Shown here: positions 7,207 through 47,330 of the stretch, piece by piece
Numbering within the stretch: the stretch's first letter is position 1
How the letters are laid out: each line of letters begins with the position of its first letter
Origin: an uncultured Roseiflexus sp.
GTDB lineage: Bacteria; Chloroflexota; Chloroflexia; Chloroflexales; Roseiflexaceae
Reading direction: 5' to 3'
Assembly: GCA_937935075.1 (NCBI GenBank)
Contig: CALGYB010000162.1
Span: 1-47,330 of the forward strand
DNA length: 47,330 nt
The notes under the pieces: model-generated
Database searches by the model: none
What the model saw: the letters and a program-made list of their open reading frames with translations, nothing else
Told to the model about the DNA's origin: nothing
Translations under genes and position numbers: made by a program

Positions 7207-7458
7207 GCCTCGAAGCGTCCTCCGGCGGACCGCAGGCGTTGGCTGCGACAGGCTCAGCCAACGCCACCCGCATTCAGATCGTCCGCTATGCCTCGTCCGG
7301 CGGACCGCAGGCGTTGGCTGCGACAGGCTCAGCCGACGCCACCCGCATTCAGGCTGCGACAGGCTCAGCCAACGCCACTCGCATTCAGATCGTCCGCTAT
7401 GCCTCGTCCGGCGGACCGCAGGCGCTGGCTGCGACAGGCTCAGCCGACGCCGCGAGAA
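7207..7458. repeat. Direct-repeat array, about three units
   Basis: Three copies of a unit that begins near GCGTCCTCCGGCGGACCGC or CCTCGTCCGGCGGACCGC and runs through GGCTGCGACAGGCTCAGCC, ACGCCACCCGCATTCAG and ATCGTCCGCTAT. The second copy has an internal partial duplication (CAGGCTGCGACAGGCTCAGCC) and the last is incomplete. The ACAGGCTCAGCC core is shared with the array at 11.2-11.4 kb and, more loosely, with 47.05-47.15 kb. It fills the gap between the tautomerase and hydratase genes. Confidence 0.85.
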
Positions 7459-11237: not shown

Positions 11238-11405
11238 ACGGATCTGCTGTTGGCTTCGACAGGCTCAGCCAACGTCAGCCCCTCCTGGAACTGTCTTGCG
11301 GCTGCCGCTGGCTTCGACAGGCTCAGCCAACGTCAGCCCCTCCTGGAACTGTCTTGCGGCTGCCGTTGGCTTCGACAGGCTCAGCCAACGTCAGCCCCTC
11401 CGTAG
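11238..11405. repeat. 59-bp tandem repeat, about three copies
   Basis: Units begin with TTGGCTTCGACAGGCTCAGC and continue through CAACGTCAGCCCCTCCTGGA and ACTGTCTTGCGGCTGCCG. Copies start near 11250, 11309 and 11368 (spacing 59). The array runs into the 3' end of the aldolase gene, whose last two dozen codons and stop are made of repeat sequence. Confidence 0.9.
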
Positions 11406-27965: not shown

Positions 27966-28550
27966 TTATTCATCTTTCGCGCGGCCACGCCTGACCGTTT
28001 CCTTCTTCGGCAGACCGGTCTTCTTTGTGAGGTCACGGTCGGTGGCGAACCAGAGTTCGGGCGGGATATTGAAGAGCGCGAAGGCGTAATTGCCCATGGG
28101 CAGCCAGTACTCCCATTCTTCCGGTGTGCGCCCCTGGTAGGTCAGCACAATCTGCCACTGCGCGACATACATGATCCACACCTTGCGCTTGCGTGTTTCG
28201 TCGCCGTCGCGAAAGGTGTAGATCCGCTCGAACTTGATCAGATTGCCGTATGTGTCGTCCGAACTCGACTCGACGACGCATTGCGGCAGTTGCGCCAGCC
28301 CTTCGGCGACGCCTTTCTGCAACAGCGGCAGGTCTTCGGCGACCGCTTCGGCCTCGAGCCGGCGCACCCATGCGGAGAAGAAGGTCTGCGGATTCTCGCG
28401 TTCAGGTGAAAACAGAACCCCTTCGAGACCATTGTCAAGCTCGAAGCGATACCAGTCAGAGGGGTAACGAAACGTAAAACGCCCATGCGGGTCGGCGTAG
28501 GTGTCGACGCCAATAAAGCGCGGGCGCGGCGGACGTTCAGTGCTGGTCAT
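27966..28550 (-). CDS. Conserved-looking hypothetical protein, PsbP/DUF1795-like pattern
   Basis: A 194-aa soluble protein without signal peptide. The opening (DPHGRFTFRYPSDWYRFEL) resembles the first strands of PsbP/DUF1795-type domains, which often start with a phrase like F-x-YP-x-W. This is followed by alternating strands and helices and a basic tail (KKETVRRGRAKDE). No catalytic motif is evident. I choose ATG 28550; the frame continues to 28583 without better start signals. It is transcribed toward the duplicated membrane proteins, with palindromes in between, so a shared operon is uncertain. Function unknown. Confidence 0.65.
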   Translation of the reverse strand: MTSTERPPRPRFIGVDTYADPHGRFTFRYPSDWYRFELDNGLEGVLFSPERENPQTFFSAWVRRLEAEAVAEDLPLLQKGVAEGLAQLPQCVVESSSDDTYGNLIKFERIYTFRDGDETRKRKVWIMYVAQWQIVLTYQGRTPEEWEYWLPMGNYAFALFNIPPELWFATDRDLTKKTGLPKKETVRRGRAKDE

Positions 28551-28722
28551 AGGACTGCTCGTTTCTTTCTTTGGGCAGCGCATGTGCTGCGCGTCGTGCC
28601 ATGTGGTATGGGGTAAAAGTCTCGGTAGAAACGTATGCTACCATGAAAATCGGCGCCGGGCAAACACGCAAGGGCGCAGAGGGCAGTCATGATTTGCCAG
28701 GAAACGCCGTATCGCTGAATAC
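28551..28722. other. Intergenic, nothing clear
   Basis: No gene or RNA recognised. It contains a GCAAACACGCAAGGGCGCAG segment that looks like a fragment of a dispersed repeat. Confidence 0.4.
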
Positions 28723-28794: not shown

Positions 28795-28999
28795 AATGGC
28801 TTTTGAGAAAATAATCCGGCATCGCCTGGTTAAGCCCGCTCAGGCGGGCTTTGCAGCAGTAGCCCGCAGCTTTAGCCACCGGGCGGGCTGATGCCAAGGC
28901 GCAGTCATGCGTCCGCAACACGCCTGCGAGTGCGTGTTGACCGTTGCACCTTACAAAACGAACGTTCGAACATTTTGTCCGACTGACTGCAAGTTAGTG
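28795..28999 (+). repeat. Dispersed ~200-bp element, copy B
   Basis: Starts with TTTTGAGAAAATAATCCGG-type sequence, carries GCCCGCTCAGGCGGGC and GCCCGCAGC..CCGGGCGGGC stems, then GGCGCAGTCATGCGTCC, and ends ACATTTTGTCCGACTGACTGCAAGTT. It directly adjoins the truncated 92-bp element, as copy A does. Confidence 0.72.
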
Positions 29000-29113: not shown

Positions 29114-29260
29114 CATGGAGAGCGGGACGGCGGGACGGGCGAAGCGTTGCATGGGCACAAGGAGCAGTAGGAGAATGCAGGGCGCACGGGGAGCGGAACG
29201 GGCGAAGCGTCGCATGGGCACAAGGAGCAGTGGGAGAATGCGGGGCGCACGGGGAGCGGG
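29114..29260. repeat. 63-bp tandem repeat, just over two copies
   Basis: Unit GCGGGACGGGCGAAGCG, GCATGGGCACAAGGAGCAGT and GGAGAATGCGGGGCGCACGG, repeated at a 63-base interval (GGGCGAAGCG at 29137 and 29200). The period is a multiple of three, so long but meaningless open frames appear. Confidence 0.8.
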
Positions 29261-29340
29261 ACGCCGACAACGCACGTCGATCTCCCACACTTGAGAGGCA
29301 AGGGAATAAGAAAGAGGCACACGGCGTCGCGAAACGCTCC

Positions 29341-29509
29341 TCACCCCTCACCCCTCACCCCTCACCCCTCACCCCTCATCCCTCATCCCTCACCCCTCAC
29401 CCCTCACCCCTCACCCCTCACCCCTCACCCCTCACCCCTCACCCCTCACCCCTCACCCCTCACCCCTCACCCCTCACCCCTCACCCCTCATCCCTCACCC
29501 CTCACCCCT
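29341..29509. repeat. 7-bp minisatellite (TCACCCC)n, about 24 copies
   Basis: Near-perfect head-to-tail TCACCCC with three variant TCATCCC units (near 29377, 29384 and 29489). The minus strand is (GGGGTGA)n, giving dozens of evenly spaced GGGG runs able to form G-quadruplexes. The array ends three bases before the -35 box of the rpsU promoter. Confidence 0.95.
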
Positions 29510-29511
29510 AT

Positions 29512-29540
29512 TTGCACAATCCCTATCCAATGTGTATACT
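29512..29540 (+). promoter_or_regulatory. Sigma70-like promoter of rpsU
   Basis: TTGCAC (29512-29517), 17-base spacer, TATACT (29535-29540). The start would be near 29547, leaving a leader of about 110 bases before rpsU. Confidence 0.7.
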
Positions 29541-29659
29541 AACAGTGTGCAAGCGGCGCCAATGCCGATATGCGCCGTAATGTTGCGCCGGGAGGGGGGT
29601 GAACGGGTCATTCTTCCGCGCCGAAAGAAAAAGCCGGTGCGCGTAGATATGCCAGATCT

Positions 29660-29854
29660 ATGCGAGTAGAACGACGTGACGGTGAAACTGTAGATCAATT
29701 GCTTCGTCGCTTCAACAAAGTTGTTGTTGCTGAGCGTATCACCAAAACGTTCCGTGAAAAGATGCACTTTGTTTCCGAAAGCGAAAAGCGCAAAGAAAAA
29801 CGTCGCCGCGCCGAGCGCAATCGCCGCAAGAAGGCATTGCAGCAGGGCCAGTAG
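29660..29854 (+). CDS. rpsU: 30S ribosomal protein bS21
   Basis: A 64-aa, very basic protein with the bS21 pattern: an N-terminal strand with ERRDGETVDQLLRRFNK, a helix running to TKTFREKMHF, and a highly Arg/Lys-rich tail (RKEKRRRAERNRRKK). bS21 binds near the anti-Shine-Dalgarno end of 16S rRNA and helps start translation. The length is normal. The gene has its own promoter beside the minisatellite and ends shortly before a strong hairpin, so it is probably transcribed alone or with read-through to prfA. Confidence 0.95.
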   Translation: MRVERRDGETVDQLLRRFNKVVVAERITKTFREKMHFVSESEKRKEKRRRAERNRRKKALQQGQ

Positions 29855-29950: not shown

Positions 29951-31045
29951 ATGGCTGATGCTCTGATCGACAAACTTGCCAGTGTTGCGGCACGCTACGA
30001 TGAACTGTTCGATCTGATGGCGCAACCCGACGTCGCCACCGACCCGGTGCGATTACAGCGGTACGTGCGCGAGCAGCGCGAACTCGAGCCGCTTGTCGAA
30101 GCATATCGCGCATACCGCGACGTGGAGCGTCACATCGAAGATACGCATTTCCTGCTCGAACACGAGACTGACCAGGACGTGCGTCAGCTGGCGCAGGAAG
30201 AACTCGATCATCTACTGGAACGGCGCGCACAACTCGAGCAGGAGATCAAAGTCTTATTGCTCCCACGCGACCCGAACGACTCGAAGAATGCCATTATGGA
30301 ACTGCGGCAGGGCGAAGGCGGCGATGAAGCCGCGCTGTTCGCCGCCGACCTGTTCCGTATGTATACGCGCTACGCCGAGCAACGCGGGTGGGACATCGAG
30401 GTCATCAATGCCACCGAAAACGGACCCGGCGGCTATAAGGAGATCATTTTCGAGGTCAGGGGCGAAGGCGCCTACAGTCGCCTCAAGTATGAAGGCGGCG
30501 TCCATCGCGTGCAGCGCGTGCCGGCCACCGAAGCGCGCGGGCGCATCCATACCTCGACGGCGACGGTTGCTGTGCTGCCCGAGGTCGAAGAGACCGACAT
30601 CGAGTTGAACCCGTCCGACTACCGGGTCGATGTATTCCGTTCGGGCGGGCATGGCGGACAGGGCGTCAATACGACCGACTCGGCGGTACGGATTGTCTAC
30701 AAGCCCGGCACGCCGGAAGAGATCGTCGTCACCTGCCAGGATAGCCGTTCGCAGTTGAAGAACAAGGCGTCGGCGCTGGCAGTGCTGCGCGCGCGTCTCT
30801 TTGCTCGTGAAGAAGAGAAGCGCCGTAAGGAATTGGGCGAGTCGCGTCTGGCGCAGGTCGGCGCCGGTGAACGCGCCGAGAAGATTCGCACCTACAACTT
30901 TCCCCAAGATCGGGTGACCGACCATCGCATTGGACAGAATTTTTCCAATCTTCCGGGTATTCTCGATGGCGACCTTGATCGCTTGATCGACGCGCTGATC
31001 ATTGCCGACAATGCCGAGCGCCTCGAGGCCGTCGCCGCTCGATAA
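29951..31045 (+). CDS. prfA: Peptide chain release factor 1
   Basis: A 364-aa class I release factor that ends translation at UAA and UAG. The peptidyl-tRNA hydrolysis motif GGQ is at residues 235-237 (GGHGGQGVN), and the stop-codon reading tripeptide of the RF1 type (P-A-T, 191-193) precedes EARGRIHTS. Length and N-terminal helical domain are normal. ATG 29951 has only GGTAAG as a weak ribosome-binding site and a very short leader. The usual downstream partner prmC, which methylates the GGQ glutamine, is not next to it; adenosine deaminase follows instead after 14 bases. Confidence 0.97.
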   Translation: MADALIDKLASVAARYDELFDLMAQPDVATDPVRLQRYVREQRELEPLVEAYRAYRDVERHIEDTHFLLEHETDQDVRQLAQEELDHLLERRAQLEQEIKVLLLPRDPNDSKNAIMELRQGEGGDEAALFAADLFRMYTRYAEQRGWDIEVINATENGPGGYKEIIFEVRGEGAYSRLKYEGGVHRVQRVPATEARGRIHTSTATVAVLPEVEETDIELNPSDYRVDVFRSGGHGGQGVNTTDSAVRIVYKPGTPEEIVVTCQDSRSQLKNKASALAVLRARLFAREEEKRRKELGESRLAQVGAGERAEKIRTYNFPQDRVTDHRIGQNFSNLPGILDGDLDRLIDALIIADNAERLEAVAAR

Positions 31046-47050: not shown

Positions 47051-47330
47051 CGGTAATGAACCGCGCTTCGGCAGGCTCAGCGCATCGCGCTTCGACCCGC
47101 TCAGCGCATCGCTTCAGCATGAGCGGTTCGACTGCGCTCACCGTACGCATCGCAAAGGCCAGAACATGCAATCCCGCCAAGGTCTCCGGCAACCGCTCAT
47201 CATCGCGTGCCAGCCGGCGAAAGCGCGCCATCGCTTCGCCTAGCTCAGCGCTTCGCCAGGCGAAGCCTCGCTCAACGACCTAGCGGCGCGGCAGCGGCAC
47301 GAAGCCGCGTTTGGCTTCCGACAGCTTAAC
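47021..47330 (-). mobile_element. IS5-like insertion element, partial, inactivated transposase
   Basis: The end is at CTAG/GAGCCTGTTATG, and CTAG fits the short YTAR targets used by IS5-family elements. Minus-strand translation from 47330 gives the C-terminal signature of an IS5-type DDE transposase: KRGFVPLPRR, then V-V-E-R, GFAW, and ARFRRLARDDERLPETLAGLHVLAFA. The Trp expected after PRR is a TAG (47280-47282), and between FAW and ARFRRL and again after VLAFA there are repeat-derived insertions (GCTGAGC/CGAAGCG words). The element continues beyond the window and is presumably dead. Confidence 0.75.

Follow-up and report, generated by a model that had tools for sequence, protein, structure and literature searches.

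Tandem arrays of seven-base units have been described from the intergenic DNA of several bacterial groups. In Xanthomonas and Nostoc, the heptamers GGGAATC and GGGGA(C/T)T are intergenic and reach up to 26 copies, according to the available parts of the report of Rehm et al. (2015; PMC4692102). In the same parts of that report the G-rich strand is the coding strand near stop codons and the non-coding strand near gene starts, the divergent-gene setting is under-represented, related genomes share sites at which the repeats differ in length and sequence, some repeats come as inverted pairs, a function was not found, and heptanucleotides of Calothrix are mentioned. The TAACTGA repeats of Beggiatoaceae, Cyanobacteria and Bacteroidetes are also intergenic heptamers oriented to genes; as far as the accessible sections of PMC4679880 go, they may overlap stop codons, some lie near ribosomal protein genes, the single invariant unit occurs mostly in 2–6 copies, and in Maribeggiatoa the repeats stand few bases from start codons. 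The positional bias of heptamers was published in 2015. A cause for it has been lacking since then, the leading idea being that quadruplexes form.

The STRR of heterocystous cyanobacteria are likewise dispersed tandem heptamers in intergenic DNA, with unit sequences that differ from those reported here. Phase-variable promoter repeats are short tandem repeats standing beside a promoter, as does the array described below at rpsU.

Chloroflexi were not mentioned in the available parts of PMC4692102 and PMC4679880 when these were searched by term. A literature search, with subscription journals mostly outside its reach, gave no report of heptamer arrays in Chloroflexi, and a search for Roseiflexus with tandem repeat or G-quadruplex returned nothing on point.

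The heptamer array beside rpsU

The window analysed here, 47,330 nt long, is one contig of a Roseiflexus draft genome of 4.85 Mb in 220 contigs (G000). At 29339–29509 it carries a heptamer array with the C-rich strand, (TCACCCC)n, on the plus strand and the G-rich strand, (GGGGTGA)n, on the minus strand. TRF returned a score of 321, a period of 7, 24.4 copies and 97% matches. Counting of the full units gave 24 (21 TCACCCC and three TCATCCC), in agreement with the initial annotation, which had described about 24 copies. A chance origin was ruled out, because the best tandem-repeat score in 40 third-order Markov resamples of the window was only 65. ORFs cross the array on the plus strand, since no stop codon occurs in the unit as read there; coding support was not found, and the array was rejected as translated sequence.

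The minus strand contains 24 runs of at least GGG, 21 of which are GGGG, and its G4Hunter score is 2.29. When the G-rich strand was folded as RNA at 60 °C with quadruplexes allowed, four quadruplexes were predicted, so that the proposed quadruplex-prone nature of this strand holds as a prediction. Under the same settings none was predicted for GGCGAGA, GGCGUGA, GGUGAGA, GGUGUGA or AGGUUGA units. Plain fold prediction, with quadruplexes not enabled, found no structure in the array, an intrinsic terminator scan of it found none, and an Rfam scan of the array and the rpsU leader gave nothing at gathering score.

The last C of the array (29508) is followed after three bases by the rpsU −35 box TTGCAC (29512–29517), as had been annotated. 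The −10 box TATACT was placed by promoter scan at 29535–29540, after a 17-base spacer, and is identical in the six species aligned; the originally annotated interval ended at 29540 and took in this promoter, whereas the array itself stops at 29509. The 5′ leader (29541–29659) is followed by rpsU (29660–29854; ribosomal protein S21, 64 aa, Pfam PF01165, E 9e-11) and prfA (29951–31045; peptide chain release factor 1, Pfam PCRF and RF-1), all on the plus strand. This puts the array at a distance of 3 bp from the −35 box and of 150 bp from the rpsU start codon. On its other side lies a minus-strand gene (27966–28583) without Pfam match, with a gene-finder coding score of 52.9 and a predicted start 753 bp from the array as defined by its skeleton (29337–29509). 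The rpsU array stands between divergent genes, unlike the usual setting in the available account of Xanthomonas and Nostoc.

The promoter TTGCAC N17 TATACT was found in G000, in its relatives G001, G004 and G005 and in the outgroup G009, while G003, a congener assembled as a single contig of 5,801,598 bp, has TTGCGC as −35; the −35/−10 spacer is 17 in all six. The units beside the −35 box vary in number between species, in keeping with the change of copy number supposed in the initial annotation, each species being represented by one genome. There are 24 of TCACCCC type in G000, about three TAACCCC in G005 and about two TAACCCC in G004, the last two sets preceding the same TATTTGCACAATCCC; in G001, G003 and G009 the array is absent though the promoter is kept. 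The rpsU leader region had no match in G002. A tree of the 1 kb downstream placed G000 near G004 and G005, with G001 and G003 apart (one locus, moderate support). Since G000, G004 and G005 carry units at the same junction and group in the tree, it is most simply supposed that the seed beside the −35 box arose once, and that in G000 it grew and switched unit. The genome G033, from another family, has both halves of the placement rule given below within one gap upstream of rpsU (L025): a run of G-rich heptamers comes after a TAG, and a run of C-rich ones reaches up to the rpsU −35 box.

A heptamer class and its placement at gene borders

BLAST with the rpsU array gave 35 matches in G000, and the exact five-unit pattern TCACNCC occurred 48 times in G000 and not at all in five congeners. 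The repeated skeleton CNCCTNN was present with other units in all six relatives searched; its backward-read control gave no match in four of the six, three in G005, and two in G009, more than the single real match there. Units in G000 and its congeners include TCACGCC, TCACACC, TCTCGCC and TAACCCC, with TAACCCC at many sites of G002 and TCTCGCC and TATCGCC types in G003 and G004. Among 60 genomes drawn from the order, 20 had a six-unit skeleton match, the backward control being equally high in several of the 20.

The arrays of G000 were sampled by similarity to TCACCCC, and many more skeleton matches exist in this genome; the G002 sample covered 30 of the 32 contigs with skeleton matches. Gene borders were taken from our own small gene finder, and rpsU, a gene of too little length for this finder, was entered manually. 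In the fetched loci 203 of the 221 arrays found by TRF lay outside predicted genes; the other 18, mostly inside predicted genes, were dropped before the counts. For the purine test, arrays with a purine fraction below 0.6 were also dropped, which left 188 of the 203. The intergenic DNA of the genus contains a class of purine-strand heptamer minisatellites to which the rpsU array belongs, and the class extends with other units to other Chloroflexales. Dozens of arrays occur in the genome, mostly just past stop codons, and a reading of the array as a private device of rpsU finds no support; this points to a general phenomenon of gene borders.

A second heptamer class, GAGAACY/GGTTCTC, lacks G-runs and is also found after stop codons (L172, 1265–1337; L191, L223 and L240).

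The arrays follow a rule of polarity. With its 5′ end, the purine-rich strand abuts a functional border. In most cases this is a stop codon whose gene is read in the purine sense; more rarely, as at rpsU, it is the start or promoter of a gene that points away from the array. Purine-sense stops lay within 30 bp of the array in 75/114 cases (median 2 bp), against 4/67 for pyrimidine-sense stops. Gene starts showed the reverse, with 20/77 in the pyrimidine sense and 6/108 in the purine sense lying within the same 30 bp. When each array was shuffled within its own gap, 25.1 ± 3.8 purine-sense stops were expected against 68 observed, a number reached in none of 2,000 shuffles, while for pyrimidine-sense stops 12.4 were expected and four observed. 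The association on the promoter side is weaker: a strong −10 box within 60 nt was found on 15/45 promoter sides and 6/55 free sides (p = 0.007), and −10 scores as a whole differed between the sides only at p = 0.05. With its C-rich sense toward rpsU, the rpsU array belongs to this minority class. In a replicate set from other genera, mostly of one family (f4), the counts among the matches listed were 15/23 against 4/18 (p = 0.011), 23 of the 68 arrays having been dropped before counting; one replicate genome, G049, broke the rule, with 1/2 purine-sense and 3/7 pyrimidine-sense stops among the matches listed.

Arrays seem to encroach on stop codons. Of the 75 purine-sense cases, 24 have the stop codon within the repeats themselves, and junctions read tag/GAGATAGGAGATAG in G043 and ttag/GGGTTAGGGGTTAG in G002 (the slash marking the end of the stop codon). 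Arrays of at least 100 bp touched the purine-sense stop in 28/31 cases and arrays below 50 bp in 25/49 (length against distance, rho −0.35, p = 1.4e-4); this trend was absent in the other three settings, distance to the start included. Among 16 ortholog sites, arrays were present in both species at eight, with main units differing at seven of these; some of the other eight carry short heptamer runs (L230, L228, L211). The sites persist between species, and unit sequence and number turn over.

Arrays predicted not to form quadruplexes keep the rule (53/80 purine-sense against 2/42 pyrimidine-sense stops), as do arrays without GGG (22/35 against 1/19). Quadruplex formation as the reason for the rpsU array finds no support, and for the class it is ruled out as the common cause of the placement. 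The rule is also independent of stop codons in the unit: it was found with stops in both senses (18/21 against 2/19), in the purine sense only, and in neither (36/62 against 1/23), so that a stop-codon filter alone was ruled out as the source of the polarity; five arrays of odd composition with a stop in the pyrimidine sense only did not follow it (0/3 against 1/5). Both explanations fall for the class because units lacking either property keep the same bias. A general purine excess after stops, of the Szybalski type, was ruled out as well, the purine fraction past the stop codons of 149 genes without arrays being 0.50–0.53. The causes left are directional growth, or the purine strand in combination with the direction in which transcription leaves.

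The arrays resemble the repeats of Rehm et al. (2015), in the available parts of that report, in being tandem G-rich heptamers that are dispersed, mostly intergenic and placed alike, and the orientation described there is seen both in the class and in the rpsU array. The GGGNATC type of that report was not found, the unit here being GGGGTGA and in congeners GGGGTTA, GGCGAGA and others. The accessible text gives a preference for four units; rpsU has 24, and the unit-number distribution of our class has no peak at four, short arrays being removed by the score cut-off. Quadruplex formation, judged for those repeats by circular dichroism, is predicted here for GGGGTGA and not for GGCGAGA, GGTGAGA or GGTGTGA. 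The Chloroflexales units vary within and between species, many are non-quadruplex, and the phylum is another than those of Xanthomonas and Nostoc. To judge from the accessible sections of PMC4679880, the TAACTGA repeats share with the Chloroflexales arrays the intergenic oriented heptamers and differ in being invariant and not G-rich. New here are the occurrence in Chloroflexales, the rule without quadruplex ability and with stop codons in both senses, one sense or neither, and the exchange of units at conserved sites.

Explanations for the placement

The best explanation, which we hold tentatively and short of calling it probable, is that the arrays are R-loop-prone sequences at the exit of transcription that grow by polar slippage at gene borders. 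In both settings transcription that leaves the gene, either by read-through past the stop or divergently from the promoter, would have the purine-rich strand as its RNA-like strand, and it is for this reason that R-loop-driven polar growth is favoured. Purine-rich RNA on a pyrimidine-rich template is expected to favour R-loops; these would stall polymerase and replication forks. Such stalling could cause polar slippage, and the array would advance on its border up to the point at which selection on the stop codon or promoter core stops it. Outward transcription may also be damped weakly by the array. The weaker association on the promoter side, the exception in G049 and the inverted pairs described below count against this explanation. 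At rpsU the core promoter would be affected little if at all, since gain or loss of units leaves the spacing and the adjacent sequence the same, and at most a weaker leftward divergent transcription would be expected. The sign of any such effect is uncertain, because output in T7 transcription rose when the non-template strand was G-rich downstream of the start, as stated in the parts available of PMC7341879.

Nearly as likely, and close behind in rank, is neutral directional growth, in which slippage and template jumping extend the arrays toward the 3′ end of the pyrimidine strand and overwrites the flank until purifying selection on the stop or promoter halts it, with no host function and no role of transcription. 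This possible origin fits the length–distance trend, which appears on the pinned stop side only, the stop codons inside arrays in 24/75 cases, the turnover of units at kept sites and the retention of the rpsU promoter without an array in G001, G003 and G009; however, it gives no reason for growth toward the 3′ end of one strand whatever the direction of the neighbouring gene. It is unlikely, in our judgement, that the arrays are Rho-based insulators, in which incoming transcripts would carry a pyrimidine-rich Rho loading site, so that antisense RNA would end short of the gene end and read-through transcripts short of the promoter. The genome encodes Rho (PF07497, 118.6 bits), the repeat RNA is C-rich in the incoming sense, and the observed polarity fits, being the same anatomy seen from the other side, which suits R-loop-driven exit and a Rho insulator equally; but many units have one or two G per heptamer in the incoming sense (TCTCGCC, TCGCGCC), and Rho would act downstream of its site, within the gene or leader.

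Remnants of small copied mobile elements, composed of array, loop and inverted array and inserting at gene borders, are more improbable still. A related loop between G-rich and C-rich arms does recur at L172, L179, L238 and L239 in G000 and G002, yet most arrays inspected have no inverted partner and their flanks differ. Least probable is the proposal of the initial annotation, a quadruplex-based phase variation or tuning of rpsU. The strong predicted quadruplex potential of the GGGGTGA unit and the change in unit number at the site between species speak for it; against it, non-quadruplex arrays have the same placement and three relatives have no array at the site. Phase-variable promoter repeats change promoter spacing or frame, whereas the rpsU array lies wholly upstream of the −35 box, outside the interval from −35 to the start, with the spacing conserved and a ribosomal protein gene downstream. 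Nor is rpsU known as a typical contingency gene, which also counts against phase variation. Promoter tuning by slippage thus finds no support, because a change in copy number leaves the promoter and the near upstream sequence the same. As a caution, a lone G-rich array at a promoter should not be taken as the switch of that gene.

To return to R-loop-driven exit, a wider form of it, which we regard as doubtful, is that bacterial heptamer arrays, unrelated to one another in sequence, are sequence-agnostic polar border elements that mark the exits of transcription from genes, both past stops and backwards from promoters. If this were true, the purine strand and the seven-base period would count, rather than sequence, quadruplexes or stop codons, and R-loop-driven slippage would make and renew such elements, which would recur in Chloroflexota, Cyanobacteria and Xanthomonas.

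Further features of the window and related loci

At L172, L179, L238 and L239 a G-rich array is followed by a short loop, with ATGAGATCA and ATGA blocks and ATGAGATCAATGA-like sequence, and an inverted C-rich array; L177 and L226 also have a ATGAGATCAATGA-like loop between inverted arms. The loops of the inverted pairs are alike at different loci of G000 and G002; since the loop sequence is related at several loci, the pairs suggest copying of whole elements and not local growth.

In the rpsU leader of the window, a Shine-Dalgarno-like GGGGGTGA ends 57 nt before the start codon. The same motif or GGAGGTGA ends 40–114 nt before the start codon in all 21 rpsU leaders compared (L009–L025, L028, L029, L033 and L149). 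A stem could bring this motif and the start together, the shuffle test being weak (combined p = 0.018, from related sequences). The leader, which has no Rfam match at gathering score, is possibly a regulatory one.

The long spacer to the left of the array contains a 63-bp direct repeat in 2.1 copies at 29130–29263. A CRISPR-DR28 match at 28832–28855 falls on a GCCCGCTCAGGCGGGC palindrome; with a score of 30.2, under the gathering score of 35, it was rejected as CRISPR and looks like a dispersed palindrome. Three units with a common CGACA(G/C)(G)CTCAGC-like core occur in tandem copies at 7241–7451, 11244–11401 and 47062–47112.
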